Source of the DNA: Verrucomicrobiota bacterium
Lineage (GTDB): Bacteria > Verrucomicrobiota > Verrucomicrobiia > Limisphaerales > UBA11358
Assembly (NCBI GenBank): GCA_028872915.1
Contig: JAGWNY010000011.1
Coordinates: 1 to 64,000 of the forward strand
Length of the DNA: 64,000 nucleotides
Direction: 5' to 3'
Part shown: positions 51,055 to 60,318 of the stretch, in pieces
Numbering within the stretch: position 1 is the first letter of the stretch
Layout: every line of letters begins with the position of its first letter
Made by a program: the position numbers and the translations under genes
Notes under the pieces: model-generated
The model's database searches: none
The model's input: the letters and a program-made list of their open reading frames with translations, nothing else
Told to the model about the DNA's origin: nothing

Positions 51055-51144
51055 GGAAGGGTGGCTGAGTGGTTAAAGGCACCTGACTCGAAATCAGGCG
51101 TACGGGCAACCGTACCGTGGGTTCGAATCCCACCCCTTCCGCCA
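51055..51144 (+). tRNA. tRNA-Ser (anticodon CGA)
   Basis: A 90-base cloverleaf: acceptor GGAAGGG with CCCTTCC, discriminator G, and encoded CCA. The anticodon stem CTGA/TCAG has the loop with CGA (51089-51091). The long variable arm GTACGGGCAACCGTAC marks serine tRNA, and the T loop is TTCGAAT. It reads TCG codons and is the likely integration target of the downstream element. Confidence 0.96.
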
Positions 51145-51170: not shown

Positions 51171-51364
51171 ATGGCAAAATCAGAGGAGGCAAGTGCCAGT
51201 GAAAGTGCCAGTGAAATCAATACCGGTTTACCACCGCTCAACTACGGGTTGAATACTGGCCGACCACTGGAAATGACGGGATTCGCCGCCCGTCTGGTGT
51301 AGCTGATACACCAAAAGCCGCGCGCAGCTTCGTAACTTCGGACAGGAAAAAGTCTGAGTTATGA
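51171..51364 (+). pseudogene. Small ORF with frameshift, coupled to the integrase
   Basis: The first frame runs from ATG at 51171 (MAKSEEASASESASE) to a stop at 51300 after FAARLV. A second frame begins immediately after (ADTPKAARSFVTSDRKKSEL) and ends in TGA that overlaps the integrase ATG. Removing two bases in the GTGT run at 51297-51300 would join the frames as RLVADTPKAA. It is a small gene with a two-base insertion, or translation slips here. Function unknown. Confidence 0.5.
51193..51216 (+). repeat. Tandem 12-base repeat between tRNA and integrase
   Basis: Two exact tandem copies of GTGCCAGTGAAA at 51193-51204 and 51205-51216, inside the coding part of the small ORF. The location between tRNA-Ser and the integrase fits an arm-type binding site for the recombinase; it could equally be a slippage expansion. 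Confidence 0.7.
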
Positions 51365-52428
51365 AACGCCGTTACATCCTTTACCGCCGCAAGCTGGGCG
51401 GGATGTTCTACGTTGAGGACACCGAGACCCGCAAACAGGAGAGCCTGGGGACCAAAGACCGCGCCGAGGCCACGGCCCTGCTCAACGCCCGCAACGAATC
51501 CGTCCGACAACCGCAACTGAACCTCCAGATCGCCAAGGCCTATCTCGCCGGAACCGATTCGGGGGTTTCAAAACGGACCTGGCAGGATGCGTTCAACGCC
51601 ATTATCGAAAACAAACATGGACCAACCAAGGAGCGCTGGCAGCGCGCCGTCAAACAGGAGGCATTTGATCTGATTCTTCCGCTGATCATTATCGAGACGC
51701 AGGCGGAGCAACTGTTCGCCTGCCTCAAGGCAGGCACGGTCAGCACGAATGTTCATCTGCGTGAGTTGCACAACTTCTGCATTTCGATGAACTGGCTGGC
51801 CTGGCCGATCATCCCCAAACGGCTTTGGCCCAAAATCGAATACAAGCCCAAACGGGCCATCAGGGCGGACGAACATCAAAGGATTATCGAACGGGAACCC
51901 AATCCCGAAAACCGGAGTTTTTATGAACTGTGCTGGCACCTGGGCGGTTCACAAACGGATGTCGCCAACCTAGAGGCGGAGAACATTGATTGGAATGACC
52001 GCGTCATTTCCTATGCCCGCCGAAAGACCGGCAGCCGGGCGTTCATTCATTTTGGGCCGGCGGTGGAAACGATCCTCCGTTCGTTGCCGACCCAAGGTTT
52101 TCTGTTTCCGAGGCTCGCTTTGCTGAAGGAAAAGTATCGGGGGCAGGAATTCAGACGCCGCTGCGCCGGTCTGGGGATTACCGGCGTCACTCTGCATTGT
52201 TACCGCTATGCCTGGGCGGAGCGGGCGAAAATGTGCGGCTATCCCGAGCGATTCGCGCAGGAGGCGCTCGGCCACAACAGCAAGGCGGTGCATCGCGCTT
52301 ACGCGCGCCGGGCACAGGTAAAACTGCCGTCACTGGAGAGCTACGAGCGGCAGGCGGCGGAAGGTTGCATCATCCAACTTCCGCAGTTCTCCCCGGAAAA
52401 GCATGGCAACGGGCAGAAGGTTGGTTGA
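51361..52428 (+). CDS. int: Tyrosine recombinase/integrase of the element
   Basis: 355 residues. The catalytic region carries LHCYRYAWAERAK (His279-x-x-Arg282) and LGHNSKAVHRAYARR (His305, Tyr314 nucleophile). The first catalytic arginine, usually in a G-R-x-E context, is not found: the aligned segment is WHLGGSQTDVANLE, with Ser-Gln in its place. The start overlaps the small ORF's stop (ATGA). It likely inserts the element into the tRNA-Ser 3' end. Variants of this kind exist in Verrucomicrobia; activity is uncertain. Confidence 0.88.
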   Translation: MKRRYILYRRKLGGMFYVEDTETRKQESLGTKDRAEATALLNARNESVRQPQLNLQIAKAYLAGTDSGVSKRTWQDAFNAIIENKHGPTKERWQRAVKQEAFDLILPLIIIETQAEQLFACLKAGTVSTNVHLRELHNFCISMNWLAWPIIPKRLWPKIEYKPKRAIRADEHQRIIEREPNPENRSFYELCWHLGGSQTDVANLEAENIDWNDRVISYARRKTGSRAFIHFGPAVETILRSLPTQGFLFPRLALLKEKYRGQEFRRRCAGLGITGVTLHCYRYAWAERAKMCGYPERFAQEALGHNSKAVHRAYARRAQVKLPSLESYERQAAEGCIIQLPQFSPEKHGNGQKVG

Positions 52429-52483: not shown

Positions 52484-52549
52484 TTGACCATGTTCACGAA
52501 ATATGCCATGTTCACGACATCGTGAACATGGCAGTTTCCGTGAACAATC
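52484..52549 (+). promoter_or_regulatory. Four-half-site operator of the AbiE module
   Basis: Two direct half-sites TGTTCACG at 52491-52498 and 52509-52516, and two inverted CGTGAACA at 52521-52528 and 52539-52546, are placed 18 bases apart on each side and exactly symmetric about 52518.5. The inner pair forms 13-base perfect arms (GCCATGTTCACGA and complement) around two bases. A -35-like TTGACC at 52484 precedes them. The antitoxin ATG (52528) sits in the inner right half-site. This is the expected place for antitoxin autorepression. Confidence 0.8.
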
Positions 52550-53652
52550 AGGAATTGAAGGGCGCTGTCTTGGAGCGGGCGTTGGCGCAACGGCTGCGTG
52601 AACTCCTTTCCGGCGTAGCCTGGCTGAAGGGCTGGGAAGTCGAAATCGATCCGGCGGAATACCGGACGGGTTTCGACATTAAAGCCACGCTGCCGCTGCC
52701 GAAGGGCGGCAAGGCGGAGTTGTGGGTGGTATGCAAGTCCAATCCTCGGCCTCATCAAATTGCCTATGACCGAACTCAAGACTTTCCTTCTCCGCAGAGA
52801 AATCCGAACCGGGTGTGGGTCTTGGCCGCCCCGTTCATTTCGCCGCGCATGGCGCAATTATGCCAGGAACTCAAGTGGGGTTGGTTCGATCTGGCGGGCA
52901 ACTCCCATCTAAGCGTGCCCGATGCCTTTCAATTGGACCGCACGGGACAACCGCCAATCCATCGGGTTCCCAAGGCTGGTGCCAATTTAAGCACGCCGGA
53001 AGCGGCGCGTATTGTCCGCGCGTTGCTCGCCCCGGAGAATGCGGGGCGGAAATGGACGCAGCGGGACTTGCAAGCTCACGCCCGGCCAAACGTCAGCCTT
53101 GGTTTGGTAAATAAAGTGGTGCGCCATCTCCACGACCAAGCATTCATTGAGGGTCTGCCGGATGGCGGATTCAAATTGCGCGCGCCGGTTGAATTGTTGA
53201 CGGCATGGCGGGACGCTTACCGTTTTGACCGTCACCAGCGCCGCAGCTATTTCACGTTGTTGAAGGGCCGGCGTTTGCAGGAAGCGTTGTGGAAGCTCGA
53301 ATCCCTGACGGGCGGGCACGCGGCGTATGCGGCGTTTTCGGCGGCGGATTTTCAAGCACCGCATGTCAGGCAACCCAAGACCTGGCTTTACGTCGCCGCT
53401 GATTGGGAAGAAAGGCTTCGCGACGTGTCCGAGGCCAAATTGGTGGATTCGGGTGAAAACCTGGTGCTCCTCATTCCTGACGACGATGGTGTGTTCTACC
53501 TTCAGGAATCAGAGGCTGACCGGCTGGCTTGTACCAACCCGGTGCAGACTTACGTGGACCTGTTTCACTGCGGCGGGCGGGGCGAAGAAGCCGCCGAAGC
53601 GTTGCTGGAACAGAATCTCAAACGCGCCTGGAAGCAGCGAGGTCTATTGTGA
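52528..53652 (+). CDS. AbiEi-type antitoxin with HTH/winged-helix domain
   Basis: 374 residues. An N-terminal restriction-endonuclease-like region (VLERALAQRLREL and GFDIKATLPLPKGGKAEL) is followed by a winged-helix region with STPEAARIVRALLAPENAG and the FYLQESEADRLAC part near the C-terminus, as in type IV AbiEi antitoxins. The frame is open from 52429, but the operator sits inside that extra part, so the ATG at 52528 is preferred. The stop overlaps the toxin GTG (GTGA). It should repress its own promoter through the operator. Confidence 0.82.
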   Translation: MAVSVNNQELKGAVLERALAQRLRELLSGVAWLKGWEVEIDPAEYRTGFDIKATLPLPKGGKAELWVVCKSNPRPHQIAYDRTQDFPSPQRNPNRVWVLAAPFISPRMAQLCQELKWGWFDLAGNSHLSVPDAFQLDRTGQPPIHRVPKAGANLSTPEAARIVRALLAPENAGRKWTQRDLQAHARPNVSLGLVNKVVRHLHDQAFIEGLPDGGFKLRAPVELLTAWRDAYRFDRHQRRSYFTLLKGRRLQEALWKLESLTGGHAAYAAFSAADFQAPHVRQPKTWLYVAADWEERLRDVSEAKLVDSGENLVLLIPDDDGVFYLQESEADRLACTNPVQTYVDLFHCGGRGEEAAEALLEQNLKRAWKQRGLL

Positions 53653-54482
53653 ATCCCGAACCCCGCCAGCGGGAAGATTACAGCCCGCGCCAAGTCGAAG
53701 CCGCCCGTCGCGTTCTGGTTGACCTTGGGCAGGTGCTGGCGGCGTTTGAAGACTGCCTGGTGGTCGTGGGCGGCTGGGTGCCTGATCTCCTGCTGGAACA
53801 AGCCGACGAACCGCACGTAGGCAGCATTGACGTGGACTTGGCGCTCGATGCGAAGAAACTCGCGGAGGGCCGGTATGCCGACCTGCTCAAACTGCTGCTG
53901 GCAACCGACCGTTACAAGCCGGGCGACAAACCGTTCCAACTGGTGGTGCAAGTGGATTTGAAGGACGGCGAAAAGCCGGTGGAAGTGGAAGTGGAATTCC
54001 TGGCGGCAAGGGAAGTGAAACTGAAAAAGAACCGGCCAAAACTTCTGGAGGGCTTCCGGGTCTTGCAGGCGGACGCCTGCGGCACGGCCTTCCACGCGCC
54101 GGTCAGCATGGAAGTTTCAGGCAAGACGGTGCGCGGGGCGAATAACAAGGTGCGCCTGCGCATTGCATCGCTGCCCGATTTTTTGGTGATGAAAGCCCAT
54201 GCGTTGGCCGGACGGGACAAGCCCAAAGATGCCTACGACCTTTGTTATTGCCTCGAACATTTCCCGGACGGCATGAAGTCGCTGGCGGCGGTTTGGCAGA
54301 GACGCCGGAAAGAGAAGGACGTGGCCAAGGCAATCGAAATCCTGCGCGAAAAATTTGCCGGCATTGACGCATTTGGGCCGCAACAAGTCGTGGAATTTCA
54401 TGGTGCGGTTGACGCGGAGACACAGGCTATGCACGCGCGCCGAGCCTTTGAACTCATGCAGCAATTTTTGAATTTCCTTTGA
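53649..54482 (+). CDS. AbiEii-type nucleotidyltransferase toxin
   Basis: 277 residues of NTase fold with DCLVVVGGWVPDLLLEQADE and HVGSIDVDLALDAKKLAEG (GG and D-x-D), and PDFLVMKAHALAGRDKPKDAYDL in the mid region. AbiEii toxins transfer nucleotides to cellular targets to halt growth until neutralised, in defence against phage. The GTG at 53649 overlaps the antitoxin stop. It converges with the minus-strand gene at 54454, overlapping by 29 bases. Confidence 0.82.
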   Translation: MNPEPRQREDYSPRQVEAARRVLVDLGQVLAAFEDCLVVVGGWVPDLLLEQADEPHVGSIDVDLALDAKKLAEGRYADLLKLLLATDRYKPGDKPFQLVVQVDLKDGEKPVEVEVEFLAAREVKLKKNRPKLLEGFRVLQADACGTAFHAPVSMEVSGKTVRGANNKVRLRIASLPDFLVMKAHALAGRDKPKDAYDLCYCLEHFPDGMKSLAAVWQRRRKEKDVAKAIEILREKFAGIDAFGPQQVVEFHGAVDAETQAMHARRAFELMQQFLNFL

Positions 54483-54841: not shown

Positions 54842-55165
54842 TCAATGGATAGTTGCCGTTTCGGTTGCCACAGGCTGCGCAACGACCTGCTTGGATGCCT
54901 TTGGCATGACGTGTCTGGCAATCACCTCTTTGAAGGTCAGGTCGGGGAGAATGTCCGAGACTTTGACCTGGAGCGAATGGGCAATCAGTTGGATGCAAAA
55001 GGCGGGCACATCGCAGCGCCCGGTTTCCCAATTCGCAACCATGTTGCGAGTTATCGGCGGGTGCAAGGCGTGCAACCATGCCGCGAGTTCTTCCTGCGTC
55101 AGGCGGTGCCGTTTGCGAATATCACGGATACGCCGTCCGACTTGTGCCTGGATGATTGGTTTCAT
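54842..55165 (-). CDS. XRE-family helix-turn-helix regulator
   Basis: 107 residues with IRDIRKRHRLTQEELAAWLH and ITRNMVANWETGRCDVPAFC (HTH of the Cro/CI type) and a C-terminal tail ending VATETATIH. The start ATG overlaps the stop of the methylase-helicase gene by four bases (ATGA), so they form an operon and it may act on that operon's promoter. Confidence 0.88.
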   Translation of the reverse strand: MKPIIQAQVGRRIRDIRKRHRLTQEELAAWLHALHPPITRNMVANWETGRCDVPAFCIQLIAHSLQVKVSDILPDLTFKEVIARHVMPKASKQVVAQPVATETATIH

Positions 55166-58100
55166 ACGGTGACGGCCGCCCGCCGAGCGCGTGCGGGCGA
55201 ATGGGTTTGAGACTGTTTTCGGGATTTGTTCTCCGCGTTTTCGTCGGCAGATTCGGTTTCAACCTGGCTTGGGGCTTGGTTTTTGGTCAGGTCGAGTTTC
55301 TCCTCAATTTCCGCCTGGCGTTTTGAAAGCTCGTGGTAACGCTCCTCCCGGTCAAACGGCGCGCCCACTTTGCGTTCCAACTCCGTCGCCCGCTTATGCG
55401 AGTCGGCAATGTCGGATTCAAGCCGCTTGGCGCGTTCCTCGAAACCCTGCGCCATCAATTCGAGCGAGCGGATGGTGCCTAATGCCGTCTCCATGACGCG
55501 CGTGCTGTAACTGTTCTTGCCGCGCAAAACCAGTTCGGCGGTGTTGTTGTAGCTGGAACGAATGAACAGGTCGAAACCGGCAAACCGTCCGATGCGAACG
55601 TCCTCGCCGAAACGAAATTTCAACTTTTGCGCCTGCCGCACGATCAGTTCACCGGCGATGCCGCGATTGTCGAGTGTCTGTCCGTCCAGTTCGATGCGGA
55701 ACTTGTCGCCGGCGGTGTCCTGCCGCACCGTCAAGTCCTGGCGCAGATTAACCAGCCGTTCGGTGTAGGTTTCGGCTTCCTCACGCGCTCGACGCAGATT
55801 CGAGCGAATCCGGTATTGCTCCTCGGCATGGGCGGAACGTAGCCGCGTGAGCCGCATGAGTTCGGCGTCCACCTGGGCTTTCTCAATCACCAACGGATTG
55901 CCGGAAGCGATGGCCTTGACTTCGGCGTAAGTCAGCGCGGCCGAGTCGAGGTCTTCCACGCGGCGGACGGTCATATCCCCGCTCATCACCTGCGCGATGA
56001 ATTTGGCCTTCGTCTCCAAGGTCTGCCACATATAGGCGTCAAATGAACCCTCTGTCACATATCGGAAAATCGAGATGACAGGGTTTTTGTTTCCCTGCCG
56101 GAGAATTCTTCCCTCCCGTTGTTCCACATCCGCCGGTCGCCACGGGGCGTCAAGGTGGTGCAAGGCAATCAACCGTTCCTGAACGTTCGTGCCCGAACCC
56201 ATTTTTTGTGTGCTGCCCAAAAGAACCCGAACCTTCCCGGCGCGCACGTCGCGAAACAGTCCCAGCTTTCCCGCGTCGGAATCATAATCCTGGATGAAGG
56301 CGATTTCACCGCCCGGCACACCGAGCCGTTGCAGCTTGTCGGCCATGTCGCGATACACGGAAAATCCCCGGTCCTGGGGCGTGGACAAATCGCAAAAAAC
56401 AAGCTGCGTCAGGCGGTCATCCTTTGTCGTCGCCCAAATTCGATGAATGTTTTCCACCGCCAGATTGACTTTGCTTTGCGGATCGTCCGGCAGACCGGGT
56501 TTCATCAGCCGCAAATCCAGCGCCGCCTTGCGTCCCTCGGTGGTGATTTTGAGCATGTTGTCCTCGCGCGGATCAATCCGCCCGCGCTTCAACGCTTCGG
56601 CGCGTTTGGCGAGGCTCTCGACAAACTTCTTCAATTGTTCCGATGCCGGGGCGTTGCGGATGGCCGGTTTTTCGCCGTCCAATTTCGGGCGCGGCAGATT
56701 GAGCATCTGCGCCGTCCGCACGTCCGCCGTTTGCCGGAAAATCTGCATCAATTCCGGGACATTGATGAACCGGGCGAAGCGCGTATTAAGCCGGTAACCC
56801 GCGCCATCGGGCGAAAGCTCCATTGCCGTTACCGGCTCGCCGAACGTGGCGGCCCACGAATCAAAGTGATGGAGGTTGTGCTTCTTCAATTCGCCGTGCT
56901 GAAGATACCGTTGCATGGTAAACATCTCGGCCATGCTGTTGGCGATGGGCGTGCCGGTGGCGAAGACGACGCCTCCGCCGCCGTTGACGGACTGGACATG
57001 ACGCACCTTGAGGAACATATCAAATGCCCGTTCACTGGCCGTTTGCGGCAGGCCGGCGATGCGCGTCATTTTGGAGACGTAAAACAGGTTTTTGAAAAAG
57101 TGCGCCTCGTCCACAAAAAGCCGGTCCACACCGAGTTCCTCGAAGGTGAGCGTGTTGTCCTTCTTGTGCTCGGCGGCTAGGGCTTGCAAGCGGGCTTCGA
57201 GACGTTTCTTGGCCTTCTCCAATTCTTTCACCAGACGACGGTTTGAACTGTCCGCGTGCGAGCGTTTTACTTCCTCCAGTTCGGCCAATTGTTCCTTGAA
57301 GAATCGCACCTGGGTTTCTTGCGACAGTGGGATGCGCTCGAACCCGGAATGGGTGACAATGACGGCATCCCAATTGCCGGTGGCAATGCGGCTGAACAGC
57401 CTTCGGCGATTCTTTGCTTCAAAATCCTCCTTGCCCGCAACCAGGATGTTTGCACCCGGATACAGCGTGAGCAACTCGCTTGAGAACTGGCCAAGCATGT
57501 GGTTGGGCACGGTGAACAGCGGCTTGCGCGCCAGCCCCAGCCGTTTCAACTCCATCGCGGAAGCGACCATCGTGTAGGTCTTGCCCGCGCCGACGACATG
57601 GCCCAGCAACGTGTTGGGCGTTTGCAGAGTCCGCCAGACGCCGGCTTTCTGATGGCCGTGGAGGTCAATCACCCCGCTGGCGCCGGGCAACGTCAGGTGC
57701 TCGCCGTTGAAGGTGCGAAGCCGGGAATGGTTGAACGTGTCGTTGTAAAGGCGGCAAAGCCGTTCGCGCCTTGCATCGTCCAGCCAGACCCATTCCTTGA
57801 ACCGTTCCTTGATGCGCTCCTGCTTTTCCCTGGCGGCTTCGGTCGCCTCCGCGTTGACGACGGGCTTTTTGTCCACGTAATCATAAACGGTCGGGGTTTT
57901 GAGATTGAGCGTTTCCTCGACCAGCTCCAGCCCGGTGTAACGGTTGGTTCCCCAATCGGTGGTGTTGGCCGTCTGCCGTTTCACTTCCCAATCGCCGGTC
58001 ACATGCCACGAACCGAGCAGGTGGATGTGGTCCACCTCGACACCGGAAGAAACGCCCAGCAGTTCATGGACGAACTGTTTCACGTCTTCCGGTGGCAGCC

Positions 58101-60318
58101 AGGATGCACCGAGCCGCACGTCAATTTCGGTGGCAGGCAAATCCTCCGGTTGAACGGATTTGAGCGCCTCGACGTTGTCGCGGAAGCGCGGGTCGGTGAC
58201 ACTGGCGGCGTCGGCGACAACAAGTTTCTCGCGGACATTGCCCGAAAGATATTGGTCGTCGGTTTCCCATTGTTGCGTCTGTGGGTTGAGAAAAATCATT
58301 CCCCTCAAATCCGGCAGAAATTCCTCCACCGGGCGGGACAGCAATCCGGCCATGTGTTCCAAATCCACACGGCCTTTTTCGTTCAGCGACACGAGCAGAG
58401 CTTCCTTGGGCGATTCAGCGGACTCGACGGGCCGCTTGTGATGAATGGTGCGTTCGCGGAAAACAGCGGCTTTGGCCGCGACGCTGGTTTCCTCGTCGTA
58501 ATGCTCCAAGGACAAGAGCAATGGCAAATCGGGATCGCCGTCGAAGGCGTTTTGATTGACGCGGGCATTGATGGGACCGAACCGGGCGACGAAACGGTCG
58601 TAGGCGAAGTTGAGCTTTTCCCTGGCCTCAACCACCTGGTCTTCGCCGCTGCCGTCAAGTTGTGAGCGCAGACAAACCCGCACGGCGTCCCGGACTTCAA
58701 TCATGCGCCGGATACGCGAGCGCGTTTCGGCGGGCAAATCGTCGAGCGGTCGGAGAACGCCGTCTTCGTTGATGCAAACCCGGCCGTCTTCGTGAACGCA
58801 GTAGGCGTTGGGTTTGATGAAATCCGGCGCGGGAATGCCCGGATCAAACTTCTGCCCGGCGACAGCCTGAATTTGCAGTTGGTAAATGTTCTGGGGCAGC
58901 TTCTGAACCGCTTCTAACAACGCCTCGCCCAAATCACGGCCATCCGGCTCCAGTGTCGGTTCGTTGTCCCGATACATCCGGCCTGTCAGCCGCATCTTGC
59001 CCAGCATCATATCGGGATGGGCGACAAAGTATTCGTTGAGGTTGAATTCCTCCTTGAGGTCGTTCGTATGATTCACCGCCGCTTTCCACGCTGCTCCTGA
59101 AGGCGATTCTCCAGTGCGCAATTTGCGAAGCATCACAATGTCGGCGGTGACTTCGGTGCCGGCGTTGCGTTTGAAGGCGTTGTTGGGCAGCCGGATTGCG
59201 CCGAGCAACTCGGCTTTGTCGGAAAGCAACTCGCGCAAGGTCGAATCGAGTTTGTCCATCGTGCTGTGCGTGGTGACAAACAGGACCAGCCCGCCCGGAC
59301 GCACCTTTTCCAGCGTCGCAGCGAAGAAATAATCGTGGATGGAAAACTTGTAGGAATTCCAGCGCGGGTCATGGACGGTGTAATCGCCGAAGGGCACATT
59401 GGAAATGGCGAGGTCGAAAGATCCGTTGGCGAGCCTGGATTTTTCAAAGGGCTGCTCGCGGATGTCGGCGTCGGGATAAAGCGCCTTGGCAATGCGCGCC
59501 GTCAGCGGATCAATTTCAATGCCGGTGATGGCCGAGGCGCGGAGCATGTCCTCGGGCATGAGACCGATGAAATGGCCAATGCCGCTGGCGGGTTCCAAAA
59601 CCTTGCCACCCTGAAACCCGAACCGCTTTGCCGCCTGATACATGGCGCGGATGACGACCGGGGCCGTGTAATGGGCGTTGAGAGTCGTGGCGCGGGCGCG
59701 TTCGTATTCCTCGTTCGTCAGTTGGCCTCGCAACACCTCGCCTTCCTTTGCCCAATCAGGATTGGTCTCGTCAAAAATCTGTGGCATTGCACCCCAGCCG
59801 ACGTATTTGACCAGGAGGGCTTTTTCGTCCGGCGTCGCGGTGCGCTCCTCGGCATCCAAAGTCCGCAGCGTGGCGATGGCTCTGAGGTTCTGTTGAAATT
59901 TCTGCTTGGGACCACCCGCGCCCAGGTGATCGTCGTCGGTGATGCGATAGCAGTTGAGATTGCCGGGTGATGTTTCGGTTGCGGACGAGCCTTCCGTCAC
60001 GCCTCCGGCGGCAGCAGGATGTATTTCTCCCGCACCATTTCCCAAGCCTGGTCGTGGGCTTGCTGCGCCGTCTTGCCTTGTTTCATCAATTCGAGGCGAA
60101 GTGTGGCCATTTCGTCCTTCGTTTTCTGTTCGGCTTCTAACAGCATCTGATGCAGGATTCCCTTCCGTTTCAATTCCCGCACCATTTTCGGGCAATGCTC
60201 GCGCCAGTGTTTCTCGGCCATTCGGCCGTATTGAGTTAGTGTGTTCATGTGTCGGCCTTCGCGCAGTAAAGAGGTCAAGCTGCCGGTCTAAATCTTGGTT
60301 GTTGCGTCGGACAGCCAT
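55162..60318 (-). CDS. DarB/N12-type adenine methylase-helicase, antirestriction-like
   Basis: 1,718 residues. The low-complexity N-terminus (about 1-120, with LDLFTARRPTHEHTNSIRPN) is followed by an adenine-methylase domain: EPASGIGHFIGLMP (motif I, about 242-255) and DLAISNVPFGDYTV (an NPPY variant, about 303-316). A helicase part follows: GHVVGAGKTYTMVAS (Walker A, about 905), FVDEAHFFKNL (DEAH, about 1067), ATGTPIANSMAEMF and DVEQREGRILRQGNKN (motif VI, about 1400). The C-terminal 120 residues are coiled-coil-like and basic. This layout matches phage P1 DarB-type and plasmid N12-methylase proteins that protect incoming DNA from restriction. Start ATG at 60318 is preceded by the second XRE gene. 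Confidence 0.9.
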   Translation of the reverse strand: MAVRRNNQDLDRQLDLFTARRPTHEHTNSIRPNGRETLARALPENGAGIETEGNPASDAVRSRTENEGRNGHTSPRIDETRQDGAASPRPGLGNGAGEIHPAAAGGVTEGSSATETSPGNLNCYRITDDDHLGAGGPKQKFQQNLRAIATLRTLDAEERTATPDEKALLVKYVGWGAMPQIFDETNPDWAKEGEVLRGQLTNEEYERARATTLNAHYTAPVVIRAMYQAAKRFGFQGGKVLEPASGIGHFIGLMPEDMLRASAITGIEIDPLTARIAKALYPDADIREQPFEKSRLANGSFDLAISNVPFGDYTVHDPRWNSYKFSIHDYFFAATLEKVRPGGLVLFVTTHSTMDKLDSTLRELLSDKAELLGAIRLPNNAFKRNAGTEVTADIVMLRKLRTGESPSGAAWKAAVNHTNDLKEEFNLNEYFVAHPDMMLGKMRLTGRMYRDNEPTLEPDGRDLGEALLEAVQKLPQNIYQLQIQAVAGQKFDPGIPAPDFIKPNAYCVHEDGRVCINEDGVLRPLDDLPAETRSRIRRMIEVRDAVRVCLRSQLDGSGEDQVVEAREKLNFAYDRFVARFGPINARVNQNAFDGDPDLPLLLSLEHYDEETSVAAKAAVFRERTIHHKRPVESAESPKEALLVSLNEKGRVDLEHMAGLLSRPVEEFLPDLRGMIFLNPQTQQWETDDQYLSGNVREKLVVADAASVTDPRFRDNVEALKSVQPEDLPATEIDVRLGASWLPPEDVKQFVHELLGVSSGVEVDHIHLLGSWHVTGDWEVKRQTANTTDWGTNRYTGLELVEETLNLKTPTVYDYVDKKPVVNAEATEAAREKQERIKERFKEWVWLDDARRERLCRLYNDTFNHSRLRTFNGEHLTLPGASGVIDLHGHQKAGVWRTLQTPNTLLGHVVGAGKTYTMVASAMELKRLGLARKPLFTVPNHMLGQFSSELLTLYPGANILVAGKEDFEAKNRRRLFSRIATGNWDAVIVTHSGFERIPLSQETQVRFFKEQLAELEEVKRSHADSSNRRLVKELEKAKKRLEARLQALAAEHKKDNTLTFEELGVDRLFVDEAHFFKNLFYVSKMTRIAGLPQTASERAFDMFLKVRHVQSVNGGGGVVFATGTPIANSMAEMFTMQRYLQHGELKKHNLHHFDSWAATFGEPVTAMELSPDGAGYRLNTRFARFINVPELMQIFRQTADVRTAQMLNLPRPKLDGEKPAIRNAPASEQLKKFVESLAKRAEALKRGRIDPREDNMLKITTEGRKAALDLRLMKPGLPDDPQSKVNLAVENIHRIWATTKDDRLTQLVFCDLSTPQDRGFSVYRDMADKLQRLGVPGGEIAFIQDYDSDAGKLGLFRDVRAGKVRVLLGSTQKMGSGTNVQERLIALHHLDAPWRPADVEQREGRILRQGNKNPVISIFRYVTEGSFDAYMWQTLETKAKFIAQVMSGDMTVRRVEDLDSAALTYAEVKAIASGNPLVIEKAQVDAELMRLTRLRSAHAEEQYRIRSNLRRAREEAETYTERLVNLRQDLTVRQDTAGDKFRIELDGQTLDNRGIAGELIVRQAQKLKFRFGEDVRIGRFAGFDLFIRSSYNNTAELVLRGKNSYSTRVMETALGTIRSLELMAQGFEERAKRLESDIADSHKRATELERKVGAPFDREERYHELSKRQAEIEEKLDLTKNQAPSQVETESADENAENKSRKQSQTHSPARARRAAVTV
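59997..60248 (-). CDS. 83-residue gene nested in the methylase-helicase N-terminus
   Basis: The frame (MNTLTQYGRMAEKHWREHCP then MATLRLELMKQGK, AWEMVREKYILLPPEA) is an acidic-basic helical protein of a type I recall as a conserved small protein of conjugative elements (sometimes annotated TnpV). It lies within codons 24-107 of the 1,718-residue gene in another frame on the same strand. Both frames look coding: the host protein's N-terminal 120 residues are also typical. An ORF start ten codons upstream at 60278 is possible. No ribosome binding site is clear. Confidence 0.65.
   Translation of the reverse strand: MNTLTQYGRMAEKHWREHCPKMVRELKRKGILHQMLLEAEQKTKDEMATLRLELMKQGKTAQQAHDQAWEMVREKYILLPPEA

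Follow-up and report, generated by a model that had tools for sequence, protein, structure and literature searches.

The window, a 64,000-nucleotide stretch of a Verrucomicrobiota contig, carries a two-gene module whose products match the profiles PF09952 (AbiEi_2; 35.6 bits against a cut-off of 21) and PF08843 (AbiEii; 37.2 bits against a cut-off of 22.5), which bears out the AbiEi/AbiEii identity proposed in an earlier sequence-only reading. The module and the features around it, on which the following analysis draws, are:

51055 to 51144, + strand: tRNA-Ser(CGA), a possible integration target of an element carrying the module
51361 to 52428, + strand: tyrosine recombinase (Phage_integrase) by profile match, directly upstream of the operator
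52484 to 52489, + strand: putative -35-like element TTGACC; TTG is enriched at the same place in homologues (sequence logo)
52490 to 52547, no strand: predicted operator with four half-sites; its 54-bp core, GTTCA-N13-GTTCA-N8-TGAAC-N13-TGAAC, lies at 52492 to 52545, and the geometry is conserved in relatives
52491 to 52498, + strand: half-site 1, TGTTCACG, inside the spacer that separates the -35-like and -10-like elements
52507 to 52512, + strand: putative -10-like element CATGTT, placed from the logo, 17 bp after the -35-like element; TATGTT or TATTTC in relatives
52509 to 52516, + strand: half-site 2, TGTTCACG, overlapping the -10-like hexamer
52521 to 52528, - strand: half-site 3, an exact TGTTCACG in the reverse direction
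52539 to 52546, - strand: half-site 4, an exact TGTTCACG in the reverse direction, with the probable GTG start codon inside it
52540 to 53652, + strand: AbiEi_2-type antitoxin/repressor, 370 aa from the GTG; the frame is open from 52429, with an alternative ATG at 52528
52561 to 52944, + strand: N-terminal alpha/beta domain, residues 8 to 135 (model, alignment and Mrr_cat matches); the E of its E-x-K motif is lost
52996 to 53178, + strand: winged helix-turn-helix (wHTH), residues 153 to 213 (model pLDDT over 90; helix conserved in the alignment)
53176 to 53619, + strand: AbiEi_2 domain PF09952, residues 213 to 360, by profile match
53649 to 54482, + strand: AbiEii nucleotidyltransferase toxin (PF08843), 277 aa; its GTG start and the antitoxin stop overlap by 4 bp

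The toxin retains the GG...DxD signature and the C-terminal K and D of AbiEii proteins, in the stretches VVGGW...SIDVDL and VMKAHAL...KPKDAYDL, and the residues concerned (G41, D61, D63, K182, and D194) are almost invariant across 50 relatives. In a Pfam scan of 50 operator-linked members, the gene after the antitoxin encodes AbiEii in 31 and NTP_transf_8 in eight. The antitoxin gave no match to the AbiEi_3 or AbiEi_4 profiles, and the N-terminal wHTH of COG5340 AbiEi proteins was not found in it. Its AlphaFold2 model (mean pLDDT 91) places an alpha/beta domain first, then a wHTH with helices at residues 153 to 163, 174 to 180, and 187 to 199 and wing strands at 203 to 213, and then the AbiEi_2 domain; sequence comparison with solved structures returned weak matches only, the best of them covering the wHTH stretch. 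The order of elements, a D...E-x-K motif (VECK/ECK) in homologues, and weak Mrr_cat profile matches in two of 52 members together point to a restriction endonuclease-like fold for residues 8 to 135. Because VECK is VCK in the window protein, the domain looks inactive here.

The four half-sites lie exactly where the sequence-only reading had placed them, with TGTTCACG twice per strand and the whole symmetric about 52518.5. The octamer occurs 10 times in the window, where 2.3 copies are expected, and four of these copies fall within 56 bp. The arms 52491 to 52517 and 52520 to 52546 match at 24 of 27 positions, and with 28-base arms the palindrome score is 24/28, making this the sole place in the window to score at least 22; 12 Markov-1 control sequences of the window's length reached 17 to 20. 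A palindrome at the centre was likewise found, with a length of 30 rather than the claimed 28 nucleotides (52504 to 52533): its perfect 14-nucleotide arms read TGCCATGTTCACGA-CA-TCGTGAACATGGCA. In a pattern search of the organism's own 3.19-Mb genome, the exact central site occurs only once, as fits autoregulation.

To establish whether the arrangement is shared, we searched 195 related genomes for close homologues of the antitoxin and recovered them at 58 to 61% identity. The layout GTTCA-N13-GTTCA-N8-TGAAC-N13-TGAAC recurs with identical spacing at five of these loci (L002, L003, L005, L006, and L007) as in the window, and the flanking DNA of these loci has otherwise diverged around the constant 54 bp; a further close homologue (L198) carries it as well. 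Left out of the comparison were L004, whose upstream DNA is cut by a contig end, and L008 and L009, whose genes are broken. The half-sites thus stand, with the same spacing, upstream of every close homologue with intact upstream DNA. Homologous modules without the repeats would have counted against an operator; the opposite was seen among the close homologues, and in many phyla the layout is linked with AbiEi_2 genes.

A logo of 71 operators shows TTG enriched eight to six bases before half-site 1 and, 17 bp on, a hexamer YATGTT that overlaps half-site 2; TATTTC is the -10-like hexamer in TTTCA-class examples such as L263. A simple consensus promoter scan found no promoter at the operator, and we infer a weak one, its hexamers based on the logo. 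Homologues have an RTG start, ATG or GTG, within half-site 4, giving proteins that begin M-N, and an in-frame start falls exactly within this half-site in 51 of 69 operator-linked genes when starts are sought from that point on. Read from GTG 52540, the window protein begins MNNQELKGAVLERALA, which aligns with MNTAILSGTALEKALA and similar sequences in homologues. Because homologous proteins start inside half-site 4, the antitoxin here probably begins at GTG 52540 rather than at ATG 52528. The start codon would still lie inside the predicted operator, as the sequence-only reading had proposed; the ATG it had in mind probably gives way to this GTG. The same comparison bears on the notion that the repeats are coding, as in-frame duplications (HVHEICHVHD) of a longer antitoxin starting at ATG 52429. 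The frame is indeed open from that ATG, which overlaps the integrase stop, and an 18-bp period preserves it, but homologous proteins can be aligned only from half-site 4 on, and several relatives have a stop-free frame that begins at or after half-site 4 and yet keep the DNA layout, so that we give this idea hardly any credence.

Our preferred explanation, to which we assign a probability of roughly 0.88, is that the repeats form the operator by which an AbiEi of the COG4861/PF09952 type would repress its own abiEi-abiEii operon. The four-half-site layout is very probably the site at which the antitoxin binds and shuts down its own genes. One wHTH would occupy each TGTTCACG, so that four antitoxin protomers could load: two as a mirror-image pair in the middle, and one more at each outer half-site, which lies 18 bp from the half-site in tandem with it. 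Half-site 1 would sit in the promoter spacer, half-site 2 would overlie the -10 region, and the start codon, together with the predicted transcript start between half-sites 2 and 4, would be covered by half-sites 3 and 4. Because the half-sites cover promoter, transcript start, and start codon, an occupied operator would exclude RNA polymerase and repress the operon; a drop in antitoxin level would reopen the promoter. Binding may be cooperative, and the antitoxin would presumably also neutralize the toxin.

To gain insights into how widely the layout is used, we searched 85,000 genomes (257 billion bases) and a viral collection for its 20 fixed bases, a pattern expected by chance 0.07 to 0.35 times in the 257 billion bases. 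It was found in 111 genome stretches and in 16 stretches of the viral collection, and at 71 of 131 places iterated HMM searches identified an AbiEi-like gene directly downstream (68 genome loci and one viral). These AbiEi-linked layouts span at least 13 phyla, and PF09952 matches 48 of 52 layout-linked proteins; PADLOC matched one of 52 antitoxins. The operator is also present with certain shorter AbiEi_2 members (about 230 aa) in which the N-terminal domain is missing, so the layout does not depend on that domain. The layouts without an adjacent AbiEi-like gene include GTTCAA-type repeats, locus ends, broken AbiEi genes, and sites with other genes downstream. The GTTCAA-rich imperfect repeats (L048, L054, L072, L080, L084, L090, L094, L106, L116, L118, and L157), many of them from one deltaproteobacterial assembly, probably are an unrelated repeat family that matches the pattern through repetition. 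In three cases, Prevotella among them, two complete GTTCA-class operators stand 78 bp apart before one AbiEi gene (L105:5963-6094, L146:4575-4706, and L069:3039-3170, the last stopping at a contig edge).

More distant AbiEi_2 genes keep the geometry and change the word. We scanned blindly for four similar 7-mers in the tandem-and-mirror layout, with no sequence assumed and a cut-off score of 13. Upstream of AbiEi_2-type ORFs of the same order, 38 of 53 regions reached the cut-off, against none of the 53 Markov versions of the same regions. The branches use GTTCAC(G), TTTCA(N)C, TTTACTG, ATTTTAG, and a TTTTACT form with 19-bp spacing; TTTCA is the chief half-site besides GTTCA. A weaker ACTTGAC signal in L012 to L014 and L017 stayed below the cut-off and is excluded from the count, and the scan found no such operator at L022 to L024, L027, L016, L188, and L190. 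The layout is present in all 12 plasmid-borne relatives, which come from Agrobacterium, Sphingobium, Variovorax, Mesorhizobium, Cupriavidus, Haematobacter, Polymorphum, Klebsiella, another Enterobacteriaceae, and Deinococcus; prevalence was measured mainly within the one order and these plasmids. Doubling of the operator is common in the TTTCA class, where the two copies lie 66 to 71 bp apart, often about 67 bp; on two plasmids the distance is 98 to 99 bp, about three helical turns more. As a control, AbiEi_4 (PF13338) genes of the same order, three of them at loci cut by contig ends and with approximate start positions, gave scores of 13 to 14 in two of 30 cases, with unrelated sequences, a chance-like outcome. 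The suggestion of a distinct AbiEi specificity is supported, with the distinction lying between families, the four half-sites of COG4861-type AbiEi_2 proteins versus the long inverted repeats of COG5340; within AbiEi_2 there are several half-site classes.

This distribution also bears on whether another DNA-binding protein mainly reads the sites, for example the upstream integrase, which would use them as recombination sites (arm-type or accessory), or the HTH_31 regulator encoded at 54842-55165 in the window. The integrase gene ends 63 bp upstream, the module adjoins tRNA-Ser, and some copies of the layout, such as those at hsdR, have no AbiEi gene beside them. The layout nevertheless goes with AbiEi_2 genes in different phyla and on plasmids that are unrelated to each other, with no constant integrase, and the half-site class varies with the AbiEi branch; we regard a different main reader as improbable.

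Among 345 alignment columns, residue 175 (codon 53062-53064; arginine in the window protein), located where the second HTH helix begins, has the highest normalized mutual information with half-site class. Of 71 GTTCA-class proteins, 69 carry arginine there, whereas none of the 26 TTTCA-class proteins does. The exceptions are valine in L102, histidine in L136, and serine in L254, a Deinococcus plasmid protein with GTTCAC half-sites around a centre that differs slightly. It is natural to propose that Arg175 reads the initial G of GTTCA, but the proposal is not proved, because a test of this link on the tree counted two to three independent changes, which is not significant, and because of the three exceptions.

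Variation among the operators themselves speaks to the alternative that the palindrome works in RNA, as a hairpin in the 5′ transcript that hides the start codon or terminates transcription. The central 30 nucleotides could form a strong hairpin, and a scan flagged a terminator-like stem on the minus strand. Across 70 operators, where half-site bases vary they match one another at a given locus (position pair 6/47 agrees in 43 against 22.4 expected, and pair 24/29 in 50 against 30.2), whereas in the spacers most positions match their mirror counterparts at chance level, which argues for a DNA site read by a protein rather than a hairpin. Direct repeats spaced by 18 bp would moreover be useless for a hairpin, and the -35- and -10-like hexamers keep a constant register with the half-sites, which puts the predicted transcript start within the repeats. 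A role in RNA is, in our judgment, highly improbable.

The Streptococcus agalactiae abiE operator consists of two 23-bp inverted repeats, TGTTGCTTTTATACCACAAATAT-N3-AAAATTGTAGTGTAAAAGCAACA (PMC3985639), and that of Mycobacterium tuberculosis Rv2827c of four 23-bp repeats in two pairs over about 130 bp, bound with negative cooperativity (PMC7319586). Both antitoxins belong to COG5340 (PMC3985639; PMC7319586), which shares no sequence identity with COG4861; COG4861-COG4849 is a second pair type (PMC3985639). PF09952 has been equated with COG4861 (PMC7251935), and the window proteins match PF09952 and PF08843, as do COG4861-COG4849 pairs. Rv0837c is a COG4861 protein (PMC7319586) and would be a nearer M. 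tuberculosis relative of the window antitoxin than Rv2827c. The module resembles S. agalactiae abiE in being an antitoxin-first bicistronic AbiEi/AbiEii operon with a wHTH antitoxin, in repeats that overlap the promoter, and in the expected function of negative autoregulation. It differs in that the S. agalactiae operator lacks the four-fold repeat (best scan score 9), whereas four half-sites lie within 56 bp here, and in that the wHTH is N-terminal in the COG5340 antitoxin and mid-protein in ours. With Rv2827c-rv2826c it shares four binding sites, predicted ones here, in the promoter of an AbiEi/AbiEii-type pair; those are 23-bp repeats over about 130 bp, unlike the short half-sites within 56 bp. 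We found no operator or DNA-binding study of the COG4861 branch among the open-access literature that we searched. The module belongs to a known family, and the new element is its operator architecture.

DUF1814 toxins are widespread, and the partners named for them are of two kinds, one of which is the COG4861 antitoxins. The fixed layout with branch-specific words supplies a DNA tag for finding modules where protein models fail, as the single PADLOC match illustrates. It also predicts the base read by each antitoxin and suits the study of cooperative repression by four or eight protomers. A bolder generalization, which we put forward tentatively and consider rather doubtful, is that COG4861-type antitoxins may form a repressor family of their own, in which a four-half-site operator, at times doubled to eight sites, is nearly universal and has its word set by the wHTH through residue 175 and the recognition helix, and that some may control restriction systems in trans via identical operators at hsdR.

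The layout stands alone directly before hsdR at L109:2850-2903, L122:5244-5297, L138:2282-2335, and L144:3358-3411. These operons encode type I restriction systems in members of the Bacteroidota and Verrucomicrobiota; no AbiEi gene is adjacent, and three of the copies lie between hsdS and hsdR. Possible cross-talk of a toxin-antitoxin repressor with restriction systems becomes testable through them. Lone layouts also occur in Verrucomicrobiota loci at L081:5386-5439, L095:2171-2224, and L126:898-951; the L095 locus encodes a D12-class DNA adenine methylase, with a near-identical gene in L081, and a RyR-domain protein, and the L126 copy adjoins an AbiEii/DUF6088-AbiEi_4 pair. At L091:1010-1063, L130:6987-7040, and L154:7367-7420, a GTTCAA/GTTCAC layout lies about 220 to 260 bp upstream of a serine recombinase/resolvase gene, and these copies could be resolution sites of similar symmetry.

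A search of contig C66 for a further copy of the tRNA-Ser 3′ end, which could have marked the far end of the element, found none. Just upstream of the homologous modules L002 (positions 1-30), L003, and L005 there is a tRNA-like 3′ end (TTCGATTCCCTTCACCCGCTCCA), located about 220 to 370 bp upstream of abiEi in L003 and L005, a position that would suit the border of an integrated element; ARAGORN detected no complete tRNA next to the modules in L035 (the contig of L002), L036 (the contig of L003), and L005. Downstream in the window, the minus strand at 55162-60318 encodes a 1718-aa protein with weak methyltransferase and SNF2/helicase profile matches, which resembles the cargo of integrative elements or large plasmids.
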